Shown: piece after piece, positions 13,864-62,988 of the stretch
Layout: each line of letters begins with the position of its first letter
How positions within the stretch are numbered: position 1 is the first letter of the stretch
Assembly (NCBI RefSeq): GCF_007004725.1
Contig: NZ_ML660169.1
Span: forward strand, 248,001-312,000
Length of the DNA: 64,000 bases
From: Aliikangiella coralliicola
GTDB taxonomy: Bacteria; Pseudomonadota; Gammaproteobacteria; Enterobacterales; Kangiellaceae
Direction of reading: 5' to 3'
Notes under the pieces: generated by a model
The model's input: only the letters and a program-made list of their open reading frames with translations
Database searches by the model: none
Told to the model about the DNA's origin: nothing
Made by a program: the position numbers and the translations under genes

Positions 13864-13889
13864 CCCTGACACAGTGAATTAAACCTGAC
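13855..13889. repeat. Imperfect 16-bp duplication spanning the ceramidase stop codon
   Basis: GTGAATTAACCCTGAC (13855-13870) is repeated as GTGAATTAAACCTGAC (13874-13889) with one mismatch and a 19-base period. Both copies contain TAA; the first is the actual stop. Confidence 0.85.
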
Positions 13890-14147
13890 GTATTCAAGCC
13901 TTTCCCCCTGCTCTGGCAAACTTTTCATCAGAAAATTTGCTAGAGCTACCCGATCAGCAATATTCGCAAACTTCCTGTTTCTAGGACTCAAATTATCCAT
14001 AAATAAAGAACAATAAGTTCAAAAATAGCATGTTTAACCAACAAAAAAGAAACAATAGAATATCTACTTAACCAGATCAAGCGATGGGCTAAACTGGTTA
14101 AATGAGAGATTAATAGCAATTAAACAACGAAAACAGGATGGGCTCCC

Positions 14148-15686: not shown

Positions 15687-15714
15687 GTTTTGTCTGAGTA
15701 AAGTTTAGCTTCAA

Positions 15715-15747
15715 TAAAAAATGCCCGACTAGTCGGGCATTTTTTTA
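15715..15747. terminator. Bidirectional intrinsic terminator
   Basis: The perfect palindrome ATGCCCGACTAGTCGGGCAT (15721-15740) is flanked by an A run on the left and a T run on the right. It therefore works as a terminator for the glutamate-synthase-like gene on the plus strand and for lysS on the minus strand. Confidence 0.93.
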
Positions 15748-15770
15748 TTCAAGTTCCTGAGCCAAAAGAG

Positions 15771-17348: not shown

Positions 17349-17437
17349 AATTTTTACTTTCTTTAACTGTTTTAAAATTTTGTCGCGCCACTATCGGCAC
17401 CTTACTCGATTAATATTCCGAAGCTAATATTCAGTGA

Positions 17438-18536
17438 CTACAAGCCAGCCTTTAAACTTTCTTCGATAAATCCGTCTAAGTCACCGTCCAAAATTGCCTG
17501 CGTATTGGTAGACTCATAGCCGGTGCGTAAATCTTTAATTCTTGACTGATCTAGCACATAAGACCGAATCTGACTTCCCCAACCGATATCAGATTTTGAC
17601 TCTTCCATCTGTTGTTTTTCAGCATTTTGTTTCTGTATTTCTAGCTCATAAAGTTTGGCCTTAAGTAATTTCATGGCCTGATCTTTATTTTTGTGCTGCG
17701 AGCGATCATTCTGACACTGCACGACACTATTTGTCGGTAAATGGGTTATTCGCACAGCAGAATCAGTTTTGTTAACGTGCTGTCCGCCAGCACCACTCGC
17801 CCGATAAGTATCAATTCTTAAATCTGCAGGATTAATATCAATTTCAATATCATCCTTAACTTCAGGATAACAAAATACGCTGGCAAAACTTGTGTGTCGA
17901 CGGCTGCCTGAATCGAATGGAGATTTACGAACTAAGCGATGGACACCGGTTTCAGTTCTTACCCAGCCGAAAGCGTATTCGCCCTGAATTTGTATCGTCG
18001 CACTTTTAATGCCTGCAACATCGCCGTCAGATTTTTCGATCAGTTCGGCATTAAATCCACGGCTTTCACACCAACGCAAATACATACGCAATAGCATATC
18101 TGCCCAATCTTGAGCTTCTGTCCCACCCGAACCAGCCTGAATATCGATGTAGGCGTTTTGTGTATCCATTTCGCCGCTAAACATCCGTCTGAACTCAAGT
18201 TTGGCGAGTTCTTTTTCCAATCCGGCTAAATCACTGACCAATTCATTAACGGTATCTTCATCATTTTCTTCAACAGCCATCTGTAGCAAATCATCGGCAT
18301 CCGCCAATCCTGACTCCAGGTTTTCGATGGTGTTAACAACGACTTCAAGGCTAGATCGCTCTTTTCCAAGGGCCTGGGCACGGTCTGGTTCATTCCAGAC
18401 ATCAGGCAATTCCAGCTCTCTTTCGACTTCGATTAAACGCTCTTTTTTGGTATCGTAGTCAAAGATACCCCCTAAGAGAACTTTTACGGGACTGTAACTC
18501 TTTGATTTGTTCTCGAATAGATGTGACTTCTATCAT
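17438..18536 (-). CDS. prfB: Peptide chain release factor 2, programmed +1 frameshift
   Basis: It recognises UGA and UAA stop codons and triggers peptide release. The gene is in two frames. Translation starts at ATG 18536 ([14 protein letters not shown]...) and reaches an in-frame UGA as codon 26 (18461-18459). That UGA sits in the canonical slip site AGGGGGTATCTTTGAC: an internal Shine-Dalgarno AGGGGG, then CUU UGA C. After a +1 shift at CUU, reading resumes with Asp (GAC, 18460-18458) and continues to 17438, giving 365 residues, the same length as E. coli RF2. The body has the SPF stop-recognition tripeptide and the GGQ catalytic motif ([10 protein letters not shown]). A plain frame reading gives only a false 323-residue start at 18409. 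Autoregulated by RF2 level, as known for this family. Confidence 0.96.
18459..18475 (-). promoter_or_regulatory. prfB: prfB programmed frameshift site
   Basis: On the minus strand: the AGGGGG Shine-Dalgarno-like stretch, TAT, then CTT TGA C. This is the textbook RF2 autoregulatory site; the UGA is codon 26, as in E. coli. Confidence 0.95.
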
Positions 18537-44405: not shown

Positions 44406-46250
44406 ATGCAAAGGTTACCCGTAATTGTAGGTTTTGGTGGCGTCAATGCCGCCGGAAGAAGTTCTTTTCATCATAGCTATCGGCGCATGGTCCACGAAGC
44501 GCTCAAAGAAGAAGATCTGGCCCCAATGTTTGAAGGCCTGGCCAAACTGATGGGAAAAGAAGAAGACAGTGATCGCCAGGCGATGCTCGACCAGACGTTG
44601 ATTCGTAAGATAGAACCCCAAACCTTTGATATTAATAGCGTCAAAACCCATCGTAAAACCACCATGCAAGCTGATGGTGAAGCGATTAAATTTCAGACTC
44701 GCAAACGCCAATTGCCTACCGAACTCCCTGAAAACTGGGAGGTTGAAGATTTAGGTGGTGGAACCGTCAATGTCACTGTAAAAGGCGAAATGGAAGTGAT
44801 GACTCACGACAGCTACACGCCAGCAGTTACCAGCGCCGCACAACTACCAACTGGTTTTGATCCTGCCGCACTCTACACTTCGCGCAACCAACCAAAAGGG
44901 TTGCAATTGGCCGTTTTTGGCGCCTCTGACGCTATCCATTCGCTTGGAATGGACTGGGAAACAGTTTTAGAACACATCGGTCCTGATGAAATTTCTGTCT
45001 ATGCCGCATCTGCCATTGGACAACTTGACGACTTCGGTGGTCGTGGATTAGCGCAAGCAATGCTAAAGGGCGGTCGAGTAACGTCTAAGCAAATGCCGCT
45101 TATGCTGACTCAAATGCCCGCTGATTTTGTTAACAGCTACATGATTAATAGCGTTGGCTCTACTGGCGCGAATATCGGTGCTTGCGCGACCTTTCTCTAT
45201 AATCTTCGCCAAGGCGTCGGTGATATCCAGGCCGGACGCGCTCGTGTTGTTATCGTAGGCGGTGCAGAAGCCCCAATTCAACCAGAGGTTATCGAAGGCT
45301 TTAAAGCGATGGGCGCATTAGCCGAAGATGCCCAATTAGCGGCAATTGATGGCACAGAACAAGCTGACAATAAAAGGGCATGCCGACCATTTGCCGAAAA
45401 TGCAGGCTTTACCATTGCAGAAGCTTCTCAGTTTTTTATCCTCATGGACGACGAATTAGCACTTGAGTTGGGCGCCACTATCTATGGTTCGGTTCCCGAC
45501 GTTTTCGTAAATGCTGACGCTAACAAAAAGTCCATCTCATCTCCTGGTGTCGGCAACTATATTACCGTTGCGAAAGCCATGGCGCTGGCGAAAAATATAT
45601 TAGGCGAAGAAGGTGTAAAACAAACATTTGCCCAGGCACACGGAACCGGAACCCCACAAAACAGAGTAACCGAATCTCACATATTAAATGAGGTAGCCAA
45701 AACTTTCGATATCGAAAAGTGGCCGGTGGCTGCAATAAAATCCTATGTTGGCCATTCCCTTGGACCGGCTGGTGGCGATCAGTTAACAGCCACTCTGGGC
45801 GTTTGGGAATATGGTTTTATTCCTTCAATCAATACCATCTCTAAAATCGCTGACGATGTTTATGATTCTAATCTTGAATTTTGCATGGAGCATAAAGCCG
45901 TTGGTGACAAGGGCAACCAAATGAAAGCCGCTATTTTGAACTCAAAAGGTTTTGGCGGTAACAACGCCACCGGTCTGGTTCTATCTCCCCACACGACGAT
46001 GGAAATGCTTGAGAAAAAATATGGCGCAGAAACCATTGCTAAGTATCAAACGAAGAATCAAAACGTGAAAGAGAACGCAAAAGCTTATGACGAAGCAGTC
46101 ATTGGCGGCGACTTTAAAGTGATTTATCATTTCGGCACTGAAGTGATGGAAGGAACTGACTTGAAAATCACCAAAGACGGTATTGAGTTAGACAAATTTA
46201 AAAACCAGCTAAAATTCAGTACAGATAATCCCTATTCTGAGTACTGTTAA
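44406..46250 (+). CDS. Large beta-ketoacyl synthase (FabB/FabF-like)
   Basis: It condenses acyl groups with malonyl-ACP. 614 residues, about 200 longer than FabB/FabF. The catalytic triad is present: Cys260 in IGACATFLYN, His412 in QAHGTGTPQ and His450 in YVGHSLGPAGG. The extra ~140 N-terminal residues (after PVIVGFGGVNAAGRSSFHHS) and a C-terminal extension are specific to this subtype. No acyl carrier protein, ketoreductase or thioesterase is nearby, so it works alone or with housekeeping partners. A hairpin terminator follows. Confidence 0.9.
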   Translation: MQRLPVIVGFGGVNAAGRSSFHHSYRRMVHEALKEEDLAPMFEGLAKLMGKEEDSDRQAMLDQTLIRKIEPQTFDINSVKTHRKTTMQADGEAIKFQTRKRQLPTELPENWEVEDLGGGTVNVTVKGEMEVMTHDSYTPAVTSAAQLPTGFDPAALYTSRNQPKGLQLAVFGASDAIHSLGMDWETVLEHIGPDEISVYAASAIGQLDDFGGRGLAQAMLKGGRVTSKQMPLMLTQMPADFVNSYMINSVGSTGANIGACATFLYNLRQGVGDIQAGRARVVIVGGAEAPIQPEVIEGFKAMGALAEDAQLAAIDGTEQADNKRACRPFAENAGFTIAEASQFFILMDDELALELGATIYGSVPDVFVNADANKKSISSPGVGNYITVAKAMALAKNILGEEGVKQTFAQAHGTGTPQNRVTESHILNEVAKTFDIEKWPVAAIKSYVGHSLGPAGGDQLTATLGVWEYGFIPSINTISKIADDVYDSNLEFCMEHKAVGDKGNQMKAAILNSKGFGGNNATGLVLSPHTTMEMLEKKYGAETIAKYQTKNQNVKENAKAYDEAVIGGDFKVIYHFGTEVMEGTDLKITKDGIELDKFKNQLKFSTDNPYSEYC

Positions 46251-46324: not shown

Positions 46325-46888
46325 TTATTCCTTCGTATAAAACACCGCAAATTTTTCTAATAACGGGTGCTGAGGATCTGAAAAAGACCGTATTCCGAGT
46401 ACCTCACCATCAGGGTCGATAAATACCAAACCTGGCGTCCCTGTAATTCCGTAATTTTCTGCAACGGCATCACCCTCAAGCACAGCATCAAATTTGTACT
46501 CATGGTTACGCCAATATACTTCAGGCTTCCAGTCTTCCCGAATGTTAACTGCGATAACTTTTAACCCTTTGCTTTCATATTTTTCATTAAGCTCTGCAAT
46601 TCCGGGAAGTAATTTTTTACAATAGGGACACCAGGTAGCCCAAAAAACGAGTAATACTGGTCGTCCCTGGTAATCAGAAAGTCGTACTTCCTGGCCTTCA
46701 AGATTCTTTAAAGACCAGTCAACTCCCTGGTAAGGCACATCAGTTTTTTTCTCACCGGAAGCAGCTACTTTACCAGGTGGCAGCGAAGAAACTTCTGTTT
46801 GAGGTAAGTACTTCCACACCGCAAACCCCGCAATAATAAACAATAATCCCGCGCTTGCAATGACTTTCCGAAATACCGACGACTGCAT
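46325..46888 (-). CDS. TlpA/ResA-like membrane-anchored thiol-disulfide protein
   Basis: 187 residues. An N-terminal signal anchor (VIASAGLLFIIAGFAVWKYL) leads to a periplasmic thioredoxin domain with the active site WATWCPYCKKLLPG (Cys87, Cys90) and the GTPGLVFIDPDG cis-Pro loop. TlpA/ResA-type proteins reduce apocytochrome thiols or copper-binding proteins. It lies 300 bases away and divergent from the cytochrome operon at 47191, which fits a role in cytochrome c maturation for that operon; this is inference. Confidence 0.88.
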   Translation of the reverse strand: MQSSVFRKVIASAGLLFIIAGFAVWKYLPQTEVSSLPPGKVAASGEKKTDVPYQGVDWSLKNLEGQEVRLSDYQGRPVLLVFWATWCPYCKKLLPGIAELNEKYESKGLKVIAVNIREDWKPEVYWRNHEYKFDAVLEGDAVAENYGITGTPGLVFIDPDGEVLGIRSFSDPQHPLLEKFAVFYTKE

Positions 46889-47190: not shown

Positions 47191-47859
47191 ATGAAGTTAT
47201 TGAAAAGTATCACTTTTTTCGTAGTTTACCTTGGATTGACCGTTTCAATGGCAAGCGCAGAAGAGCTAACGAACAACTACCAAACTTGCGCAGTTTGCCA
47301 TGGGGAAAAAGCGGAAGGTAACGAAATGCTCTCTGCACCAGCATTAGCCGGTTTAGAGGAATGGTATACCGTTCGTCAATTAAACAATTTTAAAAAAGGT
47401 ATTCGTGGAGATAAGTCAGAAGATATTTTTGGTTTGCAAATGAAAGGTGCCGTCGCCAATCTGACTGACATTCAAATCAATAGTCTTGCTAAAGAGTTAG
47501 CCGCGTTGACGCCAAAAATTCAAACACCAGAAATCCAAACGCCAGAATCCCAAAATACAGAATCCCAAAATCCAGACACCCCGGCAAACTCAACAAACGC
47601 CGAGTCAGGTAAAAAATATTACCTCTCTAATTGTGCTGCCTGCCATGGTAGTAAAGGACGGGGTAACAAACAGCTCAACTCGCCAGGATTAACCATTCAG
47701 AGCGACAGGTATTTGATCCATCAATTAAAGAATTTCAGCGCAGGGCTCAGAGGATCTCACCCTCAGGACAAATATGGCAAACAAATGGCTATGATGGCCA
47801 AAACGCTCCCCGATGAACAAGCAATACTGGACGTCGTCGCTTACATCAAGACACTATAG
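47191..47859 (+). CDS. Diheme cytochrome c (cytochrome c4-like)
   Basis: 222 residues with a signal peptide (ITFFVVYLGLTVSMASA) and two c-type heme sites: CAVCH (Cys33, Cys36, His37) and CAACH (Cys148, Cys151, His152). Each domain has the 'GNxxLxxPxLAGL/..Q..Y...QLxNF..G.R' pattern of cytochrome c4/c553 proteins. A repetitive Gln/Thr/Pro/Glu/Ser linker separates them. It is the probable electron donor to the diheme peroxidase that starts 9 bases downstream. First gene of the operon. Confidence 0.93.
   Translation: MKLLKSITFFVVYLGLTVSMASAEELTNNYQTCAVCHGEKAEGNEMLSAPALAGLEEWYTVRQLNNFKKGIRGDKSEDIFGLQMKGAVANLTDIQINSLAKELAALTPKIQTPEIQTPESQNTESQNPDTPANSTNAESGKKYYLSNCAACHGSKGRGNKQLNSPGLTIQSDRYLIHQLKNFSAGLRGSHPQDKYGKQMAMMAKTLPDEQAILDVVAYIKTL
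47521..47580. repeat. In-frame 15-bp tandem repeat coding a linker
   Basis: Four imperfect units of 15 bases (47521, 47536, 47551, 47566), each starting CAAA, encode QTPEI-QTPES-QNTES-QNPDT between the two heme domains. Copy number could vary among strains without breaking the frame. Confidence 0.85.
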
Positions 47860-47868
47860 GAAAAACCA

Positions 47869-49140
47869 TTGAACACTAGACGATACATTGATTCTTTTCT
47901 GGTTCTATCGATTATTGTTTTTTCTCACGCTCTTTCCGCAGATTCAAATCTGCCAATTCAATTCAAAACAATTCCTGCCACGCAAAACTCGCAAGATGAT
48001 AGCGCATTTACTTTATCCGTTAACTGCCCACCTGGTTTTGAAAACATTGAACAAAAATGTCATTTACGCTCACTCTACCAACAGTATGATTCTTTATACG
48101 ATAAAGGAGTCGGAGGATTGAAAACCGCATTACCGACAGTCCGCGACGGTTTTTCTCCACAGCAAATAGACCTGGGCCGTTTACTCTTTTTTGATCCCTT
48201 ATTATCTGGCGATAACACGCTCTCCTGCGCAAGTTGCCACGAACCCGACAAGGGATTTAGCGACGGCCTGCCGCGCTCAATCGGCGCTAATCAGGTTGAT
48301 GTTGGAAGAGCTTCTCCAACACTTTGGAACGTCGCTTTTCTAAGCAATTTTTTCTGGGATTCTCGCGCCCATTCACTTGAAGAGCAAATGCTTGGACCAC
48401 TCTACTCCGAAAAAGAAATGGCGACTACGCCAGTTCAATTAATCAATGAGCTGAATAACAATAAAACCTACCAGCGCTTGTTTCGGCAAGCTTTTCCCAA
48501 CGGTCAATCAGCGAAGATTACTTTGCAACAAATTTACACCAGCATTACCGCTTTTGAAGCATCTTTGATCAGTTTAAACAGTCGCTACGATCACTATGCC
48601 CATGGTTATCATCAGGCTCTGACAGAGAATGAAATAGAGGGACTCAATATTTTCCGTTCTTTCGTCGCCCGTTGCGCCGAGTGCCATACGCCTCCCCTGT
48701 TTACCAACCAACAAATTGCGGTGCTTGGTTCACCAGAACCGCCAGGTAGAGAATTAGATATCGGCGCAGAAAAAACCTTCAATAACCCAGACCTTCGCGC
48801 GGGTTTTAAAGTTCCGTCACTGAGAAATATCGTAAAAACCGCCCCTTACATGCATTCTGGAAGATTCGAAAACCTGAGAGATACTGTGGAGTTTTATACT
48901 AAAGGCCGAGGCCATGCTGTACCGGAAGGCGAAAAACTCCTGCTTCATTGGCACATATGGGAACCGGATTTAACCGAACGAGAACTTGATCGTTTGGTCG
49001 ATTTTCTAGGCACCCTGACCGATGAAAGTTTTACCCCGAAAATTCCACAGAAAGTACCGTCAGGACTACCTGTGAATGTTGGCCAAAACATTACCAAAAA
49101 AATTAAAAAATATACTTCTGTTAGAGGAGAAAAACCATGA
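47869..49140 (+). CDS. Diheme cytochrome c peroxidase / MauG-like protein
   Basis: 423 residues, a TTG start supported by TAGGA eight bases upstream, and a signal peptide (SFLVLSIIVFSHALSA). Two heme sites: CASCH (Cys120, Cys123, His124) and CAECH (Cys269, Cys272, His273), with WDSRAHSLEEQ and PSLRNIVKTAPYMHSG typical of the CcpA/MauG superfamily. A short pre-domain holds a Cys pair in CPPGFENIEQKC. The family either reduces H2O2 or oxidises a protein partner (MauG, MbnH). Its place between a cytochrome and a beta-helix protein leaves the substrate open. Confidence 0.93.
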   Translation: MNTRRYIDSFLVLSIIVFSHALSADSNLPIQFKTIPATQNSQDDSAFTLSVNCPPGFENIEQKCHLRSLYQQYDSLYDKGVGGLKTALPTVRDGFSPQQIDLGRLLFFDPLLSGDNTLSCASCHEPDKGFSDGLPRSIGANQVDVGRASPTLWNVAFLSNFFWDSRAHSLEEQMLGPLYSEKEMATTPVQLINELNNNKTYQRLFRQAFPNGQSAKITLQQIYTSITAFEASLISLNSRYDHYAHGYHQALTENEIEGLNIFRSFVARCAECHTPPLFTNQQIAVLGSPEPPGRELDIGAEKTFNNPDLRAGFKVPSLRNIVKTAPYMHSGRFENLRDTVEFYTKGRGHAVPEGEKLLLHWHIWEPDLTERELDRLVDFLGTLTDESFTPKIPQKVPSGLPVNVGQNITKKIKKYTSVRGEKP

Positions 49141-50678
49141 GCCAAACCAGCAAAAGGACAACGCGAAATTGGAAAACCTACCTGTTAATGATCGTCATTT
49201 TCGCTATCGGATTGTTAGTCGGCAAGATGAACATCGATGGTTCAGCCACAATTGTTGGCGACGCCAACCGTTACCAGAAAAGCGCAGCATTGGAATCAAC
49301 TGCAGATAACAATGTCAGTTTTGGTTCAGTCGCCACCATTAAACGCCGCCCTTTCAATGGCCAAGTTCATACAGTTAACGACGGCGAGTCAATTCAAGCA
49401 GCCGTTAACCAAGCCAAAGCCGGAGACATGGTAAAAGTTATGCCCGGTGTTTACAAAGAGACAGTCTATATTGATAAAGACGATATCACGCTAACCGGTG
49501 TCATCGTCAAAGGCGAATGGCCGGTACTTGACGGCGAGAAAAAATTGAATGACGCCATACTTTACTCCGGCAACAACTTTACTGTAGAGAATTTCAAAAT
49601 TACCCATTACAAAGGTAATGGGGTGATGGGACAGGCAGGCAACAATTTTATCATTCGAAACAACATGATTATCGATACCGGTGTTTACGGTATTTTCCCT
49701 GAGTTTGGTAAAAATGGCATCGTTGAGTACAACGTCTTAACTGGAATTGAAGATGCGGCGATTTACGTCGGCATGTGCGACAACATTCATGTTGCGCACA
49801 ATCAAGTATTCGGCAATGTTGCTGGCATAGAAATCGAAAACTCACGTCACGCAATTGTCGAAAATAATTTTGCTCATAACAACACAGGTGGCATTCTCGT
49901 TTTCATCACACCCGGGTTACCGATTAAAACGACCTACGATGTCATTATTCGTGACAATTTCGTGATTGATAACAACCATGAGAACTTCGGTGCACCGGGT
50001 TCGATCGTCGCAGGCATTCCAAAGGGGACCGGCATATTAATTATGGCCGGCGACGAAGTCACACTGCAAAACAATGTGATTACTGGTAATAATAATGCCG
50101 GGATCATCATTACCGATCATGGACACGCAGCCAACCTGACACTCGATCCGGAGGCGGAACCCAACTCCGACAAAATCGCGATACTTGATAATGTGATGTA
50201 CAACAATGGCAATGAACCTGTTAATGAAGTCAAAGCGCTGATGTTGACCAAGCTGTCTAATCGCGGCCCTGATATCATTCGCGTGGGAGAAAGCAAAGAA
50301 AGTTGCATTTTGAACCGAGAAAAATACTTAACTTTCGGTATCGATGAGTTTGGAACTTGTGCATTCGATAGTACCTACGGCACCAAGACTTACTTACTTG
50401 AAAAACCAGTGGAACCTCGAAAGATTACTGCGGAAGAAAGGGGTAAGCTTGCATACTACGGTATATGTGCCGGTTGCCATGCCTACAATGTCAAAATGGT
50501 TGGGCCGCCCACTCAGGTCATCCAGGCACTTTACATGGAAAACCCACAAGGGATTGTTGATTACATTACCAACCCGGTTAAAAAGCGCGATGACTATCCG
50601 GAAATGCCACCCCAAAACTACCTTTCTGAGGAAGTGAGAATCGCTGCAGCAAAGTATATGCTGGATGTTAAAAAGTAA
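49137..50678 (+). CDS. Membrane-anchored parallel beta-helix protein with C-terminal cytochrome c domain
   Basis: 513 residues. A signal anchor (TYLLMIVIFAIGLLVGKM) is followed by a right-handed parallel beta-helix (residues ~85-390) with NosD/CASH-type repeats such as ENFKITHYKGNGVM, NNFIIRNNMIIDTG and NIHVAHNQVFGN. A heme-binding CAGCH (Cys444, Cys447, His448) domain follows, with a likely axial Met490 in EMPPQ. The start codon overlaps the stop of the peroxidase gene (ATGA), so the two are translationally coupled. NosD-type beta-helices act in copper or metallocofactor maturation, but fusion to a cytochrome c is unusual; the beta-helix could also bind polysaccharide. I cannot decide. Confidence 0.9.
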   Translation: MSQTSKRTTRNWKTYLLMIVIFAIGLLVGKMNIDGSATIVGDANRYQKSAALESTADNNVSFGSVATIKRRPFNGQVHTVNDGESIQAAVNQAKAGDMVKVMPGVYKETVYIDKDDITLTGVIVKGEWPVLDGEKKLNDAILYSGNNFTVENFKITHYKGNGVMGQAGNNFIIRNNMIIDTGVYGIFPEFGKNGIVEYNVLTGIEDAAIYVGMCDNIHVAHNQVFGNVAGIEIENSRHAIVENNFAHNNTGGILVFITPGLPIKTTYDVIIRDNFVIDNNHENFGAPGSIVAGIPKGTGILIMAGDEVTLQNNVITGNNNAGIIITDHGHAANLTLDPEAEPNSDKIAILDNVMYNNGNEPVNEVKALMLTKLSNRGPDIIRVGESKESCILNREKYLTFGIDEFGTCAFDSTYGTKTYLLEKPVEPRKITAEERGKLAYYGICAGCHAYNVKMVGPPTQVIQALYMENPQGIVDYITNPVKKRDDYPEMPPQNYLSEEVRIAAAKYMLDVKK

Positions 50679-50930: not shown

Positions 50931-51006
50931 GTCACTTGAAACAACAGATAACGAAATGGCAGTTCTAACAGCCATCTCCTATATTTATATTAGCTCCCAA
51001 ACAATA

Positions 51007-53094: not shown

Positions 53095-53378
53095 AAATCT
53101 ATTATCCTATTAGCTGTTCAGAATGACGCGATTTAACTTAATTTCGGGTCATTTCATCGCTAGCTGGTTAATCTTCAATAGCCCATTGATTATACTCAAG
53201 CGGAGATTATTCCTGTGAATTTGGGGCAAACTGACTCACTAAAGATAGCAAACCGAGTTAAACACCATTGAAACTTGGCCACACTGACGCTAAGCTTTCA
53301 TCAGCTACACCACAAAAATGTATAATTAAGCTTGGATATGCACCTTACCAAGGCACAGAGGCCGTTACGACTAATAAA

Positions 53379-53843
53379 ATGTCACTAAAACAACTCTATC
53401 AGCAAACAATCAAACAGCACAGTCAATCGCCAATTGGCGCTAACGCTCAGTTTACGCCGACCCATCAGGCAGAAGGATATAATCCGAGCTGTGGTGACGA
53501 ACTCGATATTTATTTGCAACTTGAGCCAACAAAATCGGCATCGACAACGCAGATTAAAGCCATTGGGTTTCACTCTGATGCTTGCGCGATATGCACAGCC
53601 TCAGCTTCAATGCTTTGTGAACATAGTGAAGGTAAAACGGTAGAAGAGTTACAAAAATGCGTCGACGATTTATCTATATCGATTAAAAATCGAACGACTC
53701 TTTCAGAGTCCCTTTGCACTAGCAGCCCTCTCAATTGTCTAACAGCTGTTTCCGCTTATCCCAGTAGAATCAATTGTGCTTTGTTACCCTGGCAAACACT
53801 AGGCAGAGCGCTACAAACTGCGCAAAAATCAACGCAAAGCTAA
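53379..53843 (+). CDS. SufU/NifU-like iron-sulfur cluster scaffold
   Basis: About 154 residues from the ATG at 53379 (the frame reaches back to a TTG at 53268, but family members begin near 'SLKQLYQQTIKQH'). The NifU_N Cys set is present: HxxxxNPSCGDEL, DACAICTAS and LNCLTAV. It binds a transient Fe-S cluster or zinc. It stands directly upstream of XdhC- and MobA-like genes and a 2Fe-2S molybdoenzyme, so it probably supplies clusters (or sulfur) for that enzyme. Confidence 0.82.
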   Translation: MSLKQLYQQTIKQHSQSPIGANAQFTPTHQAEGYNPSCGDELDIYLQLEPTKSASTTQIKAIGFHSDACAICTASASMLCEHSEGKTVEELQKCVDDLSISIKNRTTLSESLCTSSPLNCLTAVSAYPSRINCALLPWQTLGRALQTAQKSTQS

Positions 53844-53855
53844 ACGAAAATCCTA

Positions 53856-54905
53856 ATGCTTAACTTGTTAACATCACTAAAAAATTTCGATCAGAACAGC
53901 GACTATGTACTTGCAGTCATACTCGACACGCAAGGGTCAACCTATCGTAAAACCGGTGCCATGATGTTACTGAATTCTTCCCTGGATTATTGGGGGCTCA
54001 TCAGCGGCGGCTGTCTTGAAGGTGACATTCAACAACACAGCGCGGAAGTTTTTAAGCAGAAAAAAGATAAAATCCTCCACTACGATATGCGTGGCGACGA
54101 AGATTTACTATGGGGAATGGGATTAGGCTGCGACGGTGCCATTAACGTGCTGCTAAAATACTTACCGGCGACTGAAAACCATCTTGGTTTTTTCGAAATA
54201 TTAAACCGAGTGTCTGCTGGTCAGGATCATCTGTTAATAATTGACCGGGTATCGATAAACTCAGCCTCGGCGTCCGAAAGCCCGCTGCACAACAGCTTTA
54301 GTTATCTGGCACTAAAAAAGCGGCAGGCAACAATAAAAATCGACAACCAGGAAGTGACTATTGCTTCCGCTCCGTGGTTAGAGAAGAGTAGTCAACAGTT
54401 AGTCATACCTTTCAATGCGCCACTCAATATTTTAATTTGCGGTGCGTCACCTGATGTTCCGCCAGTTACTTCACTTGCCCAGCAGCTAGGTTGGCAAACA
54501 ACGATTATTGATCATCGCAAAGACTTCGCTTCTGCAGGAAACTTTCCAGCTGCGCACAAAGTTGTTCACGTAAAAAGAAGCCAATGGGAAACATTTGAGT
54601 TAGAAAATTTCGATGCTGTGGTCGTAATGAGTCATCAATTTGAAAGAGACCAGGCGTATTTATCAAGGTTAATCGATAGCCCTGTCCAGTATATAGGTCT
54701 GCTTGGCCCTAGCAAACGTCGCGATAAGTTACTTGAAGAGTGCGGAACCGCATTTGCCGACCACGAAGGCCGAATATTTGGTCCGGTTGGTCTGGATATT
54801 GGAGCCGACTCTCCAGAAACCATTGCACTGGCAATCGTCGCTGAAATTCAAGCAGTGAAAACGAAAAAAGATGTCGGCTTCTGCTATCAGGACAAAACGC
54901 GATAA
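53856..54905 (+). CDS. XdhC/CoxI-family molybdenum-hydroxylase accessory protein
   Basis: 349 residues. The N-terminal XdhC/CoxI domain (VILDTQGSTYRKTGAMML, ISGGCLEGD) and the C-terminal Rossmann domain (LNILICGASPDVPPV; IFGPVGLDIGADSPE) are both intact. XdhC binds molybdenum cofactor and delivers it, sulfurated, to xanthine dehydrogenase-type enzymes. Its stop overlaps the next start by one base (TAATG), so it is translationally coupled to the MobA-like gene. Confidence 0.93.
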   Translation: MLNLLTSLKNFDQNSDYVLAVILDTQGSTYRKTGAMMLLNSSLDYWGLISGGCLEGDIQQHSAEVFKQKKDKILHYDMRGDEDLLWGMGLGCDGAINVLLKYLPATENHLGFFEILNRVSAGQDHLLIIDRVSINSASASESPLHNSFSYLALKKRQATIKIDNQEVTIASAPWLEKSSQQLVIPFNAPLNILICGASPDVPPVTSLAQQLGWQTTIIDHRKDFASAGNFPAAHKVVHVKRSQWETFELENFDAVVVMSHQFERDQAYLSRLIDSPVQYIGLLGPSKRRDKLLEECGTAFADHEGRIFGPVGLDIGADSPETIALAIVAEIQAVKTKKDVGFCYQDKTR

Positions 54906-55684
54906 TGAACAGCTCACTAAAGCCAATTTCTGAACTTAGGTCTGAGACATCGAAGCACTCACAACAGAGCCCGACACTCAATCTTGCCTGCGCAATTATC
55001 GCCGCTGGAAACTCATCAAGATTGGGTCAAGCAAAACAATTAGTTGTACAAAACGGACAAAGTTTGCTGAATAAGGCCGCGATGTTAGCTACAGCAATTA
55101 GCCGCAATGTCAGCTGCGTTTTAGGCTTTCGTGCAGAGGTGTTTTGCAAGGAAATTGAGACTTTAAATGTTAAGCCAATCCTTAACCAGAATTGGCAGCA
55201 AGGCATGGGCTCGTCAATTGCTACATGTGTGAATTCACTCAGCGATGATACAAATGGCGTGATGATTTTGTTGTGTGATCAGTGGGCACTGACACCAGTC
55301 GATCTGCAAGCACTGACAACACAATGGCAAAAAACACCGGACAAAATTGTGGCAGCGAACTACTACGATCACAAACATAAAAAAATGGTGATGGGCGCAC
55401 CAGCGATATTCCCACGAAGTTTTTTTTCAGAATTGACCGAGTTACGCGAAACTGGTGCGCGAAAACTGCTGATGCGACATGAAAGTGACGTTGAAAAAGT
55501 AAAAATTGACAATGCTGCGTTTGACCTGGATATACCAGCAGATTTTAAACATTTTAATCTGGTGAATAAAAAACTGAATACAGCTAAAAATCAATTATCA
55601 AACCAGAACAAATCACTACAGAAAAAGCACTATCAAAATAAACCTTCTAAAAATAATCAATGGGTCATTGAAGGGTCAACGTAA
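54905..55684 (+). CDS. MobA/MocA-like molybdenum cofactor nucleotidyltransferase
   Basis: 259 residues. A nucleotidyltransferase fold beginning [18 protein letters not shown] (the GxSxRxGxxK nucleotide loop) and [11 protein letters not shown]. MocA-type enzymes add CMP to the cofactor for xanthine-dehydrogenase-family proteins; the XdhC neighbour supports that over MobA. A low-complexity Lys/Asn/Gln-rich tail of ~40 residues follows the domain and is not expected in the family. Confidence 0.9.
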
Positions 55685-55698
55685 ATCGGAGAGAAACT

Positions 55699-56163
55699 AT
55701 GATCGAATTAACTATTAACGGTACTAAACAAAAATTTGATGTCGATCCGGAAATGCCGCTGCTATGGGCGCTTCGTGATATCGCCAAACTCACCGGTAGT
55801 AAATATGGATGCGGCAAAGGATTATGCGGCGCTTGCACAGTGCATATCGATGGCCAGGCAGTTCGCTCATGTATTATGCCAATATCGGCGGTAGTGGATA
55901 AACAGGTCACAACAATTGAAGGACTATCCGAACAGGGAGATCATCCTGTACAGCAAGCCTGGCAAGATCTGAACGTGCCGCAATGTGGTTATTGCCAGCC
56001 CGGTCAAATCATGTCTGCCTCAGCTTTGCTCGCGCAAAATGCTGCGCCAACCGATGAAGATATCAACAACGCTATGTCTGGAAATATTTGTCGTTGCGGC
56101 ACTTATCCACGTATTCGAGCAGCCATTCATAAAGCCGCTAAACTCGCTCGCGAGGTAAAATAA
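55699..56163 (+). CDS. 2Fe-2S subunit of molybdenum hydroxylase
   Basis: 154 residues with both clusters: plant-type [15 protein letters not shown] plus a distal Cys, and the helical cluster [10 protein letters not shown]...[10 protein letters not shown]. The usual small subunit (IorA/CoxS-like) of isoquinoline-oxidoreductase and aldehyde-dehydrogenase-type enzymes. The ribosome site GGAGAGAAAC precedes the ATG. The catalytic subunit follows after one base. Confidence 0.96.
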
Positions 56164-56164
56164 A

Positions 56165-58486
56165 ATGATTAATAACATTGGTGAAGATTTAGATAAGGAT
56201 TGGCTTATTGACGAACAACTAAATGATCCAACGGCAAACGAAACAGTGATAAAAAATGTGAGTCGTCGACACTTTTTAAAAGGTCTCGGAATTGCCAGTA
56301 GCAGTATGGTGTTAGGCATACAATTGTCACCGGCTTTAGCGGCGGCAGAAAATAACAACGAGGATCTATTTTCTCCCGACGTATTTGTTTCCATCGCAAC
56401 AGACGGACAAGTCACTATCATTTGCCATCGTTCTGAAATGGGCCAAGGCATTCGTAGCACATTGCCCTTGTTGGTAGCAGACGAACTTGAAGCAGATTGG
56501 AAAAGAGTAACGGTTGAGCAGGCAATCGGCGATCAAAAATACGGTAGCCAAAACACCGACGGCTCTCGTAGCGTTAGAAAAAATTATCAAAAGTTGAAAG
56601 AAGCAGGTGCAATCGCCCGAACGATGCTGCAACAAGCTGCGGCGAAAACCTGGAAAGTAAAACCTTCTGTCGTAACCATCAAAAACCACGCCGCCAGATT
56701 AAAAGATAGTACTCAGTCGTTGGATTTCTCGGAATTGGTCAGCATCGCTGCCACTATGCCTGTTCCTGAGAGAAGTTCTCTTAAGTTAAAAACAGAAAAA
56801 GAACAGCGCTACATCGGCAAAGACAATATTCCGTTAGTTGATGGTAAAGCGTTCGTAACCGGTCGCGCCACTTTTGGTTTTGATGTTGATATCGATGACA
56901 TGAAAGTTGCCGTTATTGCCCGCCCACCGGTAGTGTTTGGCAAAGTAAAATCTTTCGATGCCCGTGAAACACTCGAAGTTCCCGGCGTGATAAAGATCGT
57001 TGAGCTGCCAGCGATTACACCACCTGCTGTTTTTAAAATGCTCGGTGGTATTGCCGTCATTGCTGACAATACATACGCAGCAATAAAAGGTCGGGAAAAA
57101 CTAAAAATTGAGTGGGATCATGGAAAAAATGCCAGCTATGACTCAAAAGCTCATGAGCAAGTATTCAAGCAAGCCCTGGAAAAACCATCAACGGTGGTAC
57201 GTAAACGAGGCGACTTTAATCAAGCCAAAACTTCTGCCAACAAGGTAGTTGAAGCGGACTATTATGTTGGAGGATTAATCCATGCACCGATGGAACCACC
57301 AGCAGCAACGGCGCGAATGACAGACGATGGCGTTGAAGTTTGGACCTGTACACAAACCCCTCAAACAGCGCAAAATAATGTAATGGGCGTACTACAAATC
57401 CCCAAAGAAAAAGCAGCCTCTGTAGAAATTAATGTGACGCTTTTAGGCGGTGGATTTGGCCGAAAATCTAAACCTGACTATGTTGCTGAAGCAGCCTATT
57501 TAGCCAACCAGACTAAAATGCCAATCAAAGTATTATGGACGCGAGAAGATGAAGTACAACATGGCTACTATCATTCTCCTAGCTATCAAAAGTTAGCCGG
57601 CACACTCGATAACAACGGCAAGGTGACAGGTTGGTACCACGGCATGGTTAATCATCCAATTGGCGCAACTTTTAATCCTGCCGCCAAAACCGCAGGCAGT
57701 GCAGACCTGGGCCAGGGTGACATGATGTACGACGTGCCGAATATTCTGGTTGACCTCGGCGATACCGATACTTTCTTGCGTATCGGGTGGGTTCGCTCAG
57801 TGACTAATATCAATAATGCTTTCGCTGCCAGTTCATTTGTCGATGAGCTCGCTCACGCTGCAGGCAAAGATCCAAAAGATTTTTTACTTTCTCTTATCGG
57901 AAAAGATCAGCATGTTAACTTTGCTAAAGACAGTTACAAGTATGGCAATTATGGTGAGCCGCTTGATAAGTATCCAGCTGATACCGCGCGCTTGAAACGT
58001 GTTATTGAATTGGTTGCTGAAAAATCAAATTGGGGTAAGCAATTACCTAAAGGTCATGGCATGGGAATCGCAGCTCACAGAAGTTTCTGTAGTTATGTTG
58101 CCACAGTCGTCGAAGTTTCGATGGACAATGGTCGCGTTAAACTTGAAGCCATTCACAGCGCCGTTGACGTTGGCAGGGCTTTAAACCCTGATCGAATTCG
58201 TTCACAAATGGAAGGCTCCGCAATATTTTCTGCCAGCTTGGCATTTTACGGCGACATCACTGCGAAAAATGGCGTGGTTGAGCAGAGCAATTTCCATGAC
58301 TATCAAATGGCAAGAATGAATCAAATTCCTGATATTCACACTTACATTGTGGAGAGTGATGAGTTGCCAACCGGCATTGGTGAGCCGGGAGTGCCGCCTT
58401 TTTCTCCGGCATTGTGTAATGCTATTTTTGCGGCTACTGGGGAGAGGTATCGGCGGTTGCCTTTGCAGCAGTTTGGGATTGTTTGA
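56165..58486 (+). CDS. Molybdopterin-binding catalytic subunit, isoquinoline 1-oxidoreductase beta / aldehyde dehydrogenase type
   Basis: 773 residues. A twin-arginine signal (SRRHFLKGLGIASS) lies ~35 residues in, so the mature enzyme is expected in the periplasm; the N-terminal acidic extension before it is unusual. Two Ald_Xan_dh_C2-type halves follow, with the family-conserved GGGFGRKSKPDYVAEAA and the C-terminal active-site segment GEPGVPPFSPAL. No FAD subunit is in the locus, so electrons probably go to a periplasmic cytochrome, as in IorAB and periplasmic aldehyde dehydrogenases. Substrate unknown. Confidence 0.93.
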   Translation: MINNIGEDLDKDWLIDEQLNDPTANETVIKNVSRRHFLKGLGIASSSMVLGIQLSPALAAAENNNEDLFSPDVFVSIATDGQVTIICHRSEMGQGIRSTLPLLVADELEADWKRVTVEQAIGDQKYGSQNTDGSRSVRKNYQKLKEAGAIARTMLQQAAAKTWKVKPSVVTIKNHAARLKDSTQSLDFSELVSIAATMPVPERSSLKLKTEKEQRYIGKDNIPLVDGKAFVTGRATFGFDVDIDDMKVAVIARPPVVFGKVKSFDARETLEVPGVIKIVELPAITPPAVFKMLGGIAVIADNTYAAIKGREKLKIEWDHGKNASYDSKAHEQVFKQALEKPSTVVRKRGDFNQAKTSANKVVEADYYVGGLIHAPMEPPAATARMTDDGVEVWTCTQTPQTAQNNVMGVLQIPKEKAASVEINVTLLGGGFGRKSKPDYVAEAAYLANQTKMPIKVLWTREDEVQHGYYHSPSYQKLAGTLDNNGKVTGWYHGMVNHPIGATFNPAAKTAGSADLGQGDMMYDVPNILVDLGDTDTFLRIGWVRSVTNINNAFAASSFVDELAHAAGKDPKDFLLSLIGKDQHVNFAKDSYKYGNYGEPLDKYPADTARLKRVIELVAEKSNWGKQLPKGHGMGIAAHRSFCSYVATVVEVSMDNGRVKLEAIHSAVDVGRALNPDRIRSQMEGSAIFSASLAFYGDITAKNGVVEQSNFHDYQMARMNQIPDIHTYIVESDELPTGIGEPGVPPFSPALCNAIFAATGERYRRLPLQQFGIV

Positions 58487-59057: not shown

Positions 59058-59060
59058 CTA
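58981..59060 (-). repeat. Inverted repeat element, right copy
   Basis: The reverse complement matches the left copy over ~80 bases at roughly 85% identity by eye (TAGTTTTTTAGAGCGG...GCTTCGCTTGCATGCGAGTTAC...). The right end abuts the stop of the TonB receptor gene. Confidence 0.85.
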
Positions 59061-61556
59061 AAAATACATCCTAAAATCAATCCCCACCATCTTAGGCTCC
59101 GCCCGAGTAGTAGTAGGCGATCCAATCGCCTCCCCCTGCCCCCCAACAGAAAGCAAATACTCCTCATCCCCAAGGTTAGTCCCCCAAATAGAAACCTCCC
59201 AATCAGCATCCGCCGGATAATAACTAAGCCGAGCATTTTGCAATGTATAATCACCAATATGACGTGACTGATCAGCCCCGGTATGGTCAACCCGATCATC
59301 AGTAAAATTATGATGAAATCTAAATGCCAAATCCCCCGCCTCTCCCATATTTAAGTTGTAATCAAAAATAATATTCCACTTATTTTCTGGAATTGACGAA
59401 AGCGGCTCACCAGTCAAATCATCTGCCGCAGTTTCTCCGGGAAACAACGAGTAACTCGTATACTCAGTTTGCACATTACCGTAATTAGCGGTCACTCGAA
59501 AATTATCATTGAATTGCCAGCGTAAATCGATATCGTAACCATTACCCTCGGCATCCGCGTTACCCACATTATAAGTTGGGATAGTACCGGCAGGGCCTGA
59601 CAATTTTAAAATCTGTAAATCTTCATACTCATAATCATAAATAGCGAGATTAAAAATTAATTGATCGTCTAACCAACTACTTTTTAAACCTAGCTCGTTG
59701 TTAACTATTTTTTCTTCGTTGAAAGCAGGGTCAACGCCAAGACTATTAAACCCACCGGACTTAAAACCTTTCGCCGAGCTAAAATATGTCATTACATTAT
59801 CGCTCCACCGATAATCAACAACGAGTCTTGGAGTCCACGCATCCCAGGAATCATTTTGTTTGTTTGCGGGGTTAAACTGATCAAAGAAAACCAATCCAAA
59901 GGGCACGGGATCAACACCGGGTATTGGAATGATAAATGCGTTATCCCATGAAGTTAAAATGTCGAAAGACTTTTTGTCATGGGTGTACCTGATACCAAAA
60001 GTTACATCAAGCCTCTCAGTCATCGCGTAGGTGAAATCAGCATAAAACGCCACACTGTTATAAGTGCCATCGTCATAAGTGGTTTCCAACCAATCGCGAT
60101 TAACATTAGCGGCAACGGTCATATCTAGAATGGTTGCAGGATCAAGGCCGCTCAAAAATGAAAGCAATTGTAATTGATTGCTAAATTCGCTTCCGAAAAA
60201 TCCAGCTAACCCTCCCCCCAACGGAAGATTAGGGATCATTTCTGGCGGAACGCCTGCAGCGGTATAGAAAAAAGTATCTAATGTATTTGTCGTGATAAAG
60301 ACTTCATGAGCTTGCTTCGCGTGTTCCCAAGAGTATGTCGCACCAACGGTCCATTGCAGATCACCATCTCCCTTTGACGACAGCCTTAGCTCATGGCTCG
60401 CTTGCTCTTGATCTTCATTATTTTTGGTCGCGAAGAAAAAGCGTGGGTTGGCGCTACCGTCTTCTTCCTCAAAACTTGATGATTCGAAGGTTCTGTATGC
60501 TGCGATATAAGTTAAAGTAAAATCTGAATAATCCGATGTAATTTCGAGTGAAGCTCCCCAAAGATCTCGCTCCTCCAAAGAGTTAATATCAGATTCAATC
60601 GCACCAAATGGATTAGCAGGCGCAATCGCGGTGTTCATACTGGCAACTATCGGTGCATCTTGAGAAACCGTGTCATAGTCTACTCGAAATAAAACTTCGG
60701 TTGCGTCACTGTAGTCCCAAAGCAGCGACATTTTTAGCGATTGATTATCCTGATTACCAGTGTCTCTTTGACCGACCACAGGAATATAACCATCTCTTTC
60801 ATTGGAAACCAGGCTAGCGCGAAAATAGACATCATCGCTAAATTCAGTGTTGAACATCCCGTTAATCTGTCTGCGTCCAAAGTCACCGACAGTAACGCCA
60901 AACTCGCCGCTTGAACCTTTCTCTGGTTTTTTTGTTATCACGTGAAGCGATCCAGCCGCTGCGTTCCTGCCAAATAAAGTTCCTTGCGGACCTTTAAGAA
61001 TTTCTACTCGTTCCACATCATTAAAATTAGCCTGAGACGCGCCGCCTCTACCCACATAAACGCCGTCAACATAAACCGCTACTGCAGGGTCAGAGCCAAT
61101 TCCAAAATCGTTGGTGGTTATTCCACGAATGTTGTAACTCGGTTGAGTAAAGCTAGCGTTGTTTGTTTCAAATCCTGGTGTAATGCTGCCCAGATCATTA
61201 ATACTCAATGCCGCCATATCTTGCAGATCTTTATCTTGAAAAAGACTAATTGAAATTGGTACATCTTGTGGGTTTTCTTCACGATGCTGCGCGGTAACAA
61301 CAATCAGGTTTTCATTTTGTTTTTCTTGGCGATCACCAGCGGAATTTTCAGCACTTTGTGATTGGTAAACACCTGGTTGACTAACATTTGATTGACCATC
61401 CGGCGCAGGGCTTTTATGCATCAGCTTATCGTCCATAACCTGATCTTCTGCCGCACCAGTAGCTGGGAGCAAACTGCTAAAGAGTATTGTGCAAACTGCT
61501 AAATAAGTTTTTCTTGCGGCAAAAGGTATTCGACCGCTAGTTAATGTTAAATTCAT
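59058..61556 (-). CDS. TonB-dependent outer-membrane receptor
   Basis: 832 residues. Signal peptide (TYLAVCTILFSSLLPATGAA); plug with QHREENPQDVPISISLF, DVERVEILKGPQGTLFGRNA and AGSLHVITKKP; barrel ending in a terminal Phe (VGIDFRMYF), the usual outer-membrane insertion signal. The 'HREENPQDVPISISLF' TonB subclass is common in marine and sphingomonad-type scavengers of aromatic or terpenoid compounds and siderophores; the substrate is not known. A TTGACA -35 and an operator palindrome lie upstream, and a TetR regulator gene follows further up. Confidence 0.93.
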   Translation of the reverse strand: MNLTLTSGRIPFAARKTYLAVCTILFSSLLPATGAAEDQVMDDKLMHKSPAPDGQSNVSQPGVYQSQSAENSAGDRQEKQNENLIVVTAQHREENPQDVPISISLFQDKDLQDMAALSINDLGSITPGFETNNASFTQPSYNIRGITTNDFGIGSDPAVAVYVDGVYVGRGGASQANFNDVERVEILKGPQGTLFGRNAAAGSLHVITKKPEKGSSGEFGVTVGDFGRRQINGMFNTEFSDDVYFRASLVSNERDGYIPVVGQRDTGNQDNQSLKMSLLWDYSDATEVLFRVDYDTVSQDAPIVASMNTAIAPANPFGAIESDINSLEERDLWGASLEITSDYSDFTLTYIAAYRTFESSSFEEEDGSANPRFFFATKNNEDQEQASHELRLSSKGDGDLQWTVGATYSWEHAKQAHEVFITTNTLDTFFYTAAGVPPEMIPNLPLGGGLAGFFGSEFSNQLQLLSFLSGLDPATILDMTVAANVNRDWLETTYDDGTYNSVAFYADFTYAMTERLDVTFGIRYTHDKKSFDILTSWDNAFIIPIPGVDPVPFGLVFFDQFNPANKQNDSWDAWTPRLVVDYRWSDNVMTYFSSAKGFKSGGFNSLGVDPAFNEEKIVNNELGLKSSWLDDQLIFNLAIYDYEYEDLQILKLSGPAGTIPTYNVGNADAEGNGYDIDLRWQFNDNFRVTANYGNVQTEYTSYSLFPGETAADDLTGEPLSSIPENKWNIIFDYNLNMGEAGDLAFRFHHNFTDDRVDHTGADQSRHIGDYTLQNARLSYYPADADWEVSIWGTNLGDEEYLLSVGGQGEAIGSPTTTRAEPKMVGIDFRMYF

Positions 61557-61916: not shown

Positions 61917-62591
61917 TTACGAAACCAGGCGTGTGAATGTTCGTTGTAAGGTTTGCAGGGCTTGCGATTCACTCACAAAACCGGCTAACAGGCTATGTTC
62001 AAGATAGAGAATAATTGCGATCAGCTCACGGCTATCAGAATCGGGGTCATTGGAGCCTAGCGCCTGAAAAAATTGCGCGATAGCATTGAGTTGTTGCAGC
62101 TCCATGTCATTAACCAGTTGCGCTAATTCGGGATTGCGTAATGACTCATTGCGAAAAGCGCGTTCGATCATACGGTCATCCTTATTTTTGACCTGCACGC
62201 TGATATGCCGCAAAATCATGTCAGTTAACCGTTCACGTATTACTTGATAATCACCATCTGCTAGCTCACTCAGACTTGCAAAGGAATCAAACAACTCTCT
62301 TCCTGCAGTTTCAAGTGATTGTAGCTGGTTAATATTACGCTCACAAAAATCGAGAAATGCATCATGTAACAAAGCATGGATATCAGGAAAATAATAGGTG
62401 GTAGCTGCGAGCGGAACATCTGCCATTTCAGCGATTGCTCTATGTTTTACCCCTTGAACACCGTGCTCTACAATGATATCTCTCACCGCTTTGAGGATTT
62501 TTTCACGGCGCTTTTTTCCGTCTGCACGGGTCGGTATGCGTCCGCGATAAGATGCCTGAATGGAGTTAAGAATTGGGTGGATTTTTTCCAT
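61917..62591 (-). CDS. TetR-family transcriptional regulator
   Basis: About 224 residues from the ATG at 62591; the frame extends to a TTG at 62651, but the extra segment is hydrophobic and not family-like. The N-terminal helix-turn-helix is clear: KRREKILKAVRDIIVEHGVQ, VKHRAIAEMADVPLAATTYY, FPDIHALLHDAF. The ligand domain is all-helical and not identified. It is divergent from the EamA gene at 62989 and on the same strand as the TonB receptor. An AAAGTACCA half site upstream hints at autoregulation. Confidence 0.88.
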   Translation of the reverse strand: MEKIHPILNSIQASYRGRIPTRADGKKRREKILKAVRDIIVEHGVQGVKHRAIAEMADVPLAATTYYFPDIHALLHDAFLDFCERNINQLQSLETAGRELFDSFASLSELADGDYQVIRERLTDMILRHISVQVKNKDDRMIERAFRNESLRNPELAQLVNDMELQQLNAIAQFFQALGSNDPDSDSRELIAIILYLEHSLLAGFVSESQALQTLQRTFTRLVS

Positions 62592-62988
62592 TAAGTTATT
62601 CAAATGTTGATGAGCGACCAAGCCATAAAACCAGTAAGTAATGCTATTCAATCAAACAAAGTTCTCACCATCATGGTGCCGGTTTAAATCAGGCAGCTCA
62701 AATGCCAGCGATTGAATACCCGTGACAAAGTACCATTGATAAAGCCTGTATCTCAAGTTAATTACTTGGGCGATAGAATATTATGGTGGTAATTAGCGCA
62801 GAGTCTTATATCATTTTGAAATTATTTAGAAACAATTTTATTACTTTTTAGTGAGTTTTTTCTCGATTTTATGCGAATTATCTATTACCGTTAAGCAGTG
62901 ATGCTTATGCTCATTAAGTTCTCAAATGAGTGCTTCGACATAGTAAACACTTAATCCACTCATTTAATCTATCCGGCATATCAAATCT
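62592..62988. promoter_or_regulatory. Divergent spacer between TetR and EamA genes
   Basis: About 400 AT-rich bases. It contains AAAGTACCA (62727-62735), matching one half of the palindromes at 47135 and 61709. No gene seen. Confidence 0.45.

Follow-up and report, generated by a model that had tools for sequence, protein, structure and literature searches.

In a 64,000-nt stretch of the Aliikangiella coralliicola genome (contig NZ_ML660169.1, positions 248,001 to 312,000; hereafter the window), three genes that we call P1, P2, and P3 encode a c4-like diheme cytochrome, a MauG-like diheme enzyme, and a beta-helix protein with its own heme c domain. The same gene order is found in distant bacteria, and the operon is therefore not a chance arrangement. 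Judged by sequence, P1-P2-P3 appears to form a branch of its own within the TIGR03805 beta-helix family, which is described as one half of a two-gene pair with the diheme cytochrome TIGR03806. The two forms of the system are mutually exclusive in the loci we saw, and TonB receptor and regulator families are common to both. Tentatively, and with slightly less than even confidence, we propose that the three proteins make up a TonB-linked periplasmic oxidoreductase, where the P3 beta-helix would provide the substrate site, the hemes would carry electrons, and P2 would oxidize P3.

Composition and conservation of the operon

In the open reading frame (ORF) list of the window, P1, P2, and P3 are consecutive on the plus strand (Table 1). 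Nine bases separate the stop of P1 from the TTG start of P2, and P2 and P3 overlap by ATGA. The original prediction, made from the sequence alone, had described three tightly coupled genes; the ORF coordinates agree with this description, and Pfam matches and CxxCH counts (two in P1, two in P2, and one in P3) agree with its domain calls. P1 exceeds the cut-off of no NCBIfam model, and its c4-type features are the two CxxCH motifs and two Cytochrom_C stretches (2.7e-21), with export suggested by a signal-like N-terminus judged by eye. P1 is likely an electron shuttle. The genome that carries the window is 7.04 Mb in size, and P3 is its only TIGR03805 match; the closest named relatives over P3 are one Aliikangiella and one Kangiellaceae metagenome-assembled genome (MAG), at 81-82% identity.

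P3 matches the Pfam domains Beta_helix (1.4e-18) and NosD (3.9e-12). At the level of curated families, residues 86-369 score 191.1 bits against TIGR03805 (beta_helix_1), above the cut-off of 141.5, and 57.2 bits against the NosD model TIGR04247, below the cut-off of 300. The beta-helix, earlier labeled NosD-like, is better assigned to TIGR03805. In the AlphaFold2 model (mean predicted local distance difference test score, pLDDT, 78.6), a helix at residues 12-30, which we read as a membrane anchor, is followed by a predicted beta-helix from about residue 77 to about residue 382, with block pLDDT mostly 83-96 until residue 330. The monoheme cytochrome c domain spans approximately residues 434-511, where model confidence is low; its match to Cytochrome_CBB3 (PF13442) is weak and below cut-off, and phmmer aligns it with cytochrome c551/c552 chains (best E 0.001). 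Met490, within an EMPPQ motif, is Met in all 19 P3-type proteins having the region and is likely the sixth heme ligand. Together, the Pfam and NCBIfam matches and the model uphold the predicted architecture of anchor, beta-helix, and single-heme cytochrome c. Cys390 and Cys408 are also invariant (20/20 P3-type proteins), a statement we restrict to the P3 type as Cys408 was seen in the sister form in one alignment and not in another.

We collected 20 P3-type loci, comprising the window, eight loci on other contigs (L002-L009), Ruegeria pomeroyi DSS-3 (L074), and ten further genomes; L005 ends inside P3, and genomes G001 and G005, which have the contigs of L003 and L002, were counted once. P2 lies upstream of P3 on the same strand at 19/19 loci with upstream sequence, and P1 precedes P2 at 17 of these, in keeping with the earlier view of one redox system and showing that the unit is conserved. 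Among 369 genomes of the class, the P2 subfamily (E<=1e-60) was found in four, and these are also the four in which P3 occurs; as only the few best candidates of each genome were scored, failure to find a gene does not prove its absence. When 66 proteins were placed in a maximum-likelihood tree, a branch with a Shimodaira-Hasegawa-like approximate likelihood ratio test (SH-aLRT) support of 99 set the 20 P3-type proteins apart from the others. The tree search was a quick one, with long branches for L076 and L074. One Flavobacteriales MAG falls within the P3 clade, which suggests horizontal transfer, unless the MAG is misbinned.

Alternative heme partners of one beta-helix family

For the sister form, 90 TIGR03805 rows without a fused monoheme domain were reduced to 46 non-redundant loci at 85% identity. 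A TIGR03806 (SO2930 family) diheme cytochrome is adjacent to the beta-helix gene in 34 of the 46 and fused to it in seven, giving 41/46. At L116 (8110-10755) and L117 (7935-10559), for example, beta-helix and TIGR03806-type cytochrome share one ORF of 874-881 residues. One further locus, L075, has a TIGR03806-type cytochrome adjacent by annotation; among the remaining four, two reach the edge of the fetched stretch, and L130 and L076 showed none in our scan. L076 (7812-8810) is a TIGR03805-like protein of Hymenobacter with no annotated cytochrome partner. Two TIGR03806-type partners scored against the curated model were both over its cut-off, and among 61 related genomes TIGR03806 gave ten matches over cut-off in nine. 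In a published list, SO_2930 stands in the outer-membrane/extracellular column (PMC4837345).

P3 is not paired with TIGR03806: its adjoining gene is P2, and the one TIGR03806-like gene of the window's genome lies on another contig and scores below cut-off. Conversely, a search at E<1e-10 of the stretches fetched for the 46 sister loci, of which 28 are longer than 9 kb, revealed homologs of neither P1 nor P2. The question raised in the original prediction, whether homologs of the beta-helix protein occur mostly without the peroxidase, therefore divides by architecture, with none found at the 46 sister loci and a peroxidase-family gene at every P3-type locus with upstream sequence. Both forms share the beta-helix family and its invariant core and usually have a c-type cytochrome nearby, but in the P3 form a fused monoheme domain, a MauG-like enzyme, and a c4-like cytochrome replace TIGR03806. 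P3 has an anchor helix, whereas several sister proteins look lipoprotein-like by eye.

We then compared residues between the 20 P3-type proteins and 45 relatives, excluding L076. At 24 positions, one residue is found in every P3-type protein and in all, or all but one, of the relatives; these include Y184, D206, Y210, E232, E234, N235, N279, N283, and F284. Around this core, position 164 is Met in 20/20 P3-type proteins and Lys in 42/45 relatives, position 187 is Phe (20/20) versus Tyr (45/45), and position 213 is Met (20/20) versus Gln (45/45). Tyr111 (20/20) and Tyr158 (19/20) are likewise particular to the P3 type, with neither they nor Met164 and Met213 occurring in any of the 45 relatives. 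This pattern of three exchanges and two new tyrosines around a retained core suggests that the surroundings of the putative active site were altered together with the heme partner. Coil spacing in the model points to the conserved residues of P3 sharing one face.

The two forms are also linked by their transport and regulatory genes. In genome G011, a receptor gene stands divergent from the TIGR03805/TIGR03806 pair, and in G049 another stands divergent from P1-P2-P3; the TonB-dependent receptor at 59058-61556 of the window has 57% identity to the former and 46% to the latter. At a limit set beforehand (E<=1e-100), its orthologs were found in 9/61 related genomes, of which four hold the P3 type and five the sister form. 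The TetR-type regulator beside this receptor is 45% identical to a TetR next to the G011 pair and 36% identical to one in the G049 P1-P2-P3 region, with Pfam TetR matches that are weak and below cut-offs. An AraC-type regulator is common to the P1-P2-P3 loci of G314 and G410 and the TIGR03805/TIGR03806 loci of G016 and G019 (33-37% over 287-332 residues), and AraC relatives (31-36%) occur at four more P3 loci. A single beta-helix core, together with one family of TonB receptors and with related regulators, is now tied to two alternative heme partners. The function thereby becomes testable, and the cultured marine bacterium Ruegeria pomeroyi DSS-3 carries the operon as SPO_RS20595 (P1), SPO_RS20600 (P2), and SPO_RS20610 (P3).

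A proposed oxidoreductase and competing explanations

We hypothesize that a compound imported through the shared receptor would bind the acidic, Tyr-bearing face of the beta-helix, which the P3 anchor would hold at the inner membrane. Electrons would move between this substrate site and the heme c of P3 and onward through P1. With H2O2 or O2, P2 would reach a high-valent diheme state and oxidize P3, either in a single maturation event or at every turnover. In the sister form, a separate or fused TIGR03806 diheme cytochrome would serve instead, with no MauG-like enzyme. An analogy comes from the window's own genome, where a TIGR03806-like domain (below cut-off) is fused to a glucose/sorbosone dehydrogenase domain (G000:C16:17194-18072; L115 3177-5657), as it is in similar fusions in G049 and G008. 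Glucose/sorbosone dehydrogenases typically use pyrroloquinoline quinone (PQQ). Such fusions indicate that cytochromes of this type can serve oxidizing enzymes, and by analogy the beta-helix may occupy the place where a dehydrogenase would stand. Also in favor of the proposal are the pairing of P2 with P3 at 19/19 loci and in the same four class genomes, the failure to find P1 or P2 homologs at the 46 sister loci, the TIGR03806 cytochromes of the sister form, the receptor and AraC families met with both forms, and the MauG-equivalent residues of P2 and their likeness to BthA, described below.

Several observations weigh against this proposal. It is drawn from genes and models, and the redox activity, the substrate and its binding by the beta-helix, the direction of electron flow, and the contact through which P2 would act on P3 are all putative. 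The P2 ligands rest on alignment, as a structure model built from 8 sequences reached a pLDDT of 44 and was not used. G729 showed no P1, and in G180 none was seen upstream of P2. In Ruegeria pomeroyi DSS-3 (L074), a tetratricopeptide repeat (TPR) gene at 10832-11908 lies between P2 and P3, and G180 has an extra P2-like gene (L084 6717-8027, 44% identical) with no P3 homolog within the 15 kb fetched around it. As to the TonB link, a related receptor was seen near only 9/20 P3 loci, some of whose stretches are short, and at five of these nine the receptor is distant (26-31% identity). The nine genomes with an ortholog of the shared receptor are exactly those, among the 61, with a beta-helix match below 1e-35, but this line was drawn after the results were seen, and in many of the genomes only 16 of a larger number of receptor candidates were scored. 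No receptor ortholog was found in G016, G019, G041, and G058, which have weaker TIGR03805 matches (1e-25 to 1e-21), or in G022 (9.4e-4). The nine genomes are not independent, although within two genera (3/7 and 4/17 genomes) receptor and beta-helix match are either both present or both absent in each genome.

P2 belongs to CCP_MauG (PF03150, 5.2e-52) and has a conserved N-terminal Cys-Pro motif, but it falls below the curated cut-offs of both the MauG model TIGR03791 (181.0 bits, cut-off 443.85) and the MbnH model TIGR04039 (211.1 bits, cut-off 362.85). We aligned P2 with Paracoccus denitrificans MauG and with a Methylocystis diheme protein adjoining MbnP, which is named MbnM in its record and which we read as MbnH from its two CxxCH motifs and the alignment. 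For MauG we use the usual residue numbers, with which the letters agree at an offset of 20; in that enzyme Tyr294 is the axial ligand, Trp93 lies between the hemes, and Gln103 and Glu113 are distal. In this alignment, equivalents of MauG His35, Trp93, Gln103, Glu113, His205, and Tyr294 are present in 19/19 P2 sequences and that of Pro107 in 18/19, whereas the Trp199 position is Phe in 19/19. The predicted axial tyrosine of P2, Tyr343, is Tyr in 19/19 and aligns with a Met of the cytochrome c peroxidase 2c1u; in bacterial cytochrome c peroxidases, Met is typically the axial ligand of the high-potential heme. The MauG-like character anticipated for P2 thus extends to its putative ligand residues, which have equivalents in MauG and MbnH; the Phe at the position of MauG Trp199 is a difference. 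Their partner is methylamine dehydrogenase or an adjoining MbnP gene, whereas that of P2 is a beta-helix cytochrome; P2 does not lie in a mau operon with methylamine dehydrogenase and has P1 and P3 as neighbors. A further tyrosine-ligated diheme enzyme outside a mau operon is BthA of Burkholderia, which has the same tyrosine, forms bis-Fe(IV), and, like P2, has a conserved and unexplained partner gene; the partner is a putative phosphatase, and the enzyme is reported as found only in Burkholderia (PMC6405878).

P2 could instead be a plain cytochrome c peroxidase, either clearing H2O2 or using it for respiration. P1 and the P3 heme would then donate the electrons, and the beta-helix would only bind a surface or envelope polymer. 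The best solved relatives of P2 in phmmer searches are di-heme cytochrome c peroxidases, P1 is of the usual donor type, and BthA is also reported as a peroxidase (PMC6405878). The invariant Tyr in place of the peroxidase Met speaks against this explanation, as does the failure to find a P2 homolog at any of the 46 sister loci. Moreover, the P2 subfamily is rare and tied to P3, and a detoxifying peroxidase needs no beta-helix. We regard a peroxidase role as possible, if doubtful.

A second possibility is a special case of the proposed oxidoreductase. Here, P2 would act like MauG or MbnH, oxidatively modifying a residue of P3 once to give a protein-derived cofactor, while P1 and the P3 heme carry electrons. 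The MauG-type ligands, the strict pairing of P2 with P3 at 19/19 loci, and the four residues particular to the P3 type (Tyr111, Tyr158, Met164, and Met213) are consistent with it, and there are two models in which the gene of a MauG-like enzyme has a partner, MbnP with its diheme neighbor and BthA with its phosphatase (PMC6405878). The original prediction had named the beta-helix as a possible MauG-type substrate and advised looking for a conserved Trp or Tyr near the heme. No Trp is among the residues invariant in the P3 type only, and Trp128 is Trp in 10/20 P3-type proteins, which makes a MauG/MbnH-style tryptophan substrate unlikely, and we rejected this candidate. The Phe at the Trp199 position of P2 and the retention of the TIGR03805 core where no MauG-like gene is nearby also argue against one-time maturation, which we consider rather unlikely. 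A bolder version, in which P2 would be a new kind of MauG and P3 a dehydrogenase that bears the cofactor and is connected to its own heme, seems to us distinctly unlikely; candidate cofactor residues would be the same four, near the invariant Tyr210. If true, P3 would represent a previously unseen class of MauG substrate, and a sugar-enzyme scaffold would have been turned into a redox enzyme of a new kind. Under any reading in which P2 acts on P3, a substrate class would be added to the MauG-like reactions, of which, to our knowledge, the list is short.

The structure of P3 invites another comparison. Its top Foldseek matches are the AlgE4 A-module, RbmB, and PL6, alginate epimerase and polysaccharide lyase beta-helices (E 3e-8 to 4e-6). 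Taken at face value, P3 would be of the alginate epimerase type, whether as a lyase or as an epimerase, with the cytochromes as a redox sensor or anchor. In Burkholderia cenocepacia, the TIGR03805-labeled Bcam1339, with one transmembrane helix, is part of an exopolysaccharide gene cluster (PMC3584217), as would be expected of an enzyme acting on polysaccharide, and L076, the relative from Hymenobacter, has glycoside hydrolase genes around it. The Foldseek matches and Bcam1339 also count against the oxidoreductase proposal. However, identity is only 9-17% among the 50 Foldseek matches listed and beta-helices match one another generically, so we take these matches as pointing to a fold and not to a function. 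The Lys and Tyr of the relatives at positions 164 and 187, which might act as acid and base, are Met and Phe in P3, and P2 would be left unexplained. We judge a polysaccharide enzyme very unlikely. We give almost no credence to a NosD-like, copper-handling P3 and rejected it, as the Pfam NosD match and the MauG-like diheme gene adjoining an annotated copper-binding MbnP are outweighed by the NosD subfamily score, the lack of any nos family among 11 window proteins scanned, and a universal core of 24 residues without Cys, His, or Met.

The oxidoreductase reading remains the one we favor. As the original prediction had supposed, the system may be undescribed: in the open-license library searched, we found no account of the three-gene operon, nor of the function of the TIGR03805/TIGR03806 pair. 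TIGR03805 and its usual partner are already catalogued in curated databases, and we found no function for either.

Neighboring genes

Table 1. Positions within the window of the operon, parts of P3, and neighboring genes, with the basis for each assignment
Feature	Coordinates	Strand	Description or basis
P1	47191..47859	+	Diheme cytochrome c, c4-like; two CxxCH, two Cytochrom_C stretches
P2	47869..49140	+	CCP_MauG superfamily diheme enzyme; TTG start; predicted MauG-type axial Tyr (Y343)
P3	49137..50678	+	Predicted anchor helix, TIGR03805 beta-helix, Cys390 and Cys408, monoheme cytochrome c
P3 beta-helix part	49365..50282	+	Putative substrate site; residue conservation, Foldseek
P3 cytochrome c domain	50436..50669	+	CAGCH at residue 444; PF13442 1.1e-4; phmmer
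TonB-dependent receptor, shared transporter partner	59058..61556	-	Identity to receptors in G011 and G049; co-occurrence
TetR-type regulator adjoining the shared receptor	61917..62651	-	Identity to TetRs in G011 and G049; weak Pfam TetR
TlpA/ResA-like thioredoxin, divergent	46325..46888	-	AhpC-TSA 4.2e-23; 51-61% matches in L002 and L003 only

Two other neighbors had been pointed out in the original prediction, and neither held up as a partner. The TonB receptor directly after the operon, at 50956, was not found in the relatives first compared for neighborhood and resembles the shared receptors at only 25-28% over 178-195 residues; it was rejected as a partner, the receptor common to both forms being the one in Table 1. 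The divergent TlpA-like thioredoxin, among the relatives first compared, is retained solely in the two Kangiellaceae-type relatives L002 and L003, and we rejected it as a general partner.

Between the operon and the shared receptor, the plus strand (53268-58486) encodes a SufU-family protein (over its cut-off), an XdhC-related protein that scores under its cut-off, a protein that looks MobA-like by eye, a 2Fe-2S subunit, and a molybdenum hydroxylase subunit. The last of these has an N-terminus that resembles, by eye, a twin-arginine translocation (Tat) signal. The molybdenum-hydroxylase gene pair also occurs in L002 and L003, where the Mo subunit is retained, and G742 has a 30% relative of that subunit beside its TIGR03805/TIGR03806 pair.

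On the upstream side, a beta-ketoacyl-synthase-like protein (44406-46250, by eye) adjoins an AraC regulator and is kept upstream of the operon in L003, and it was not seen in L002. At the Ruegeria pomeroyi locus (L074), a gene for a large von Willebrand factor type A (VWA) domain protein lies downstream on the opposite strand (13456-17892). In two related MAGs, a divergent FAD (flavin adenine dinucleotide)-binding dehydrogenase, NF009472, adjoins the operon (L004 1-1505 and L008 4571-6262); the L008 copy passes the model's cut-off, and the L004 copy, cut by the contig end, misses it.

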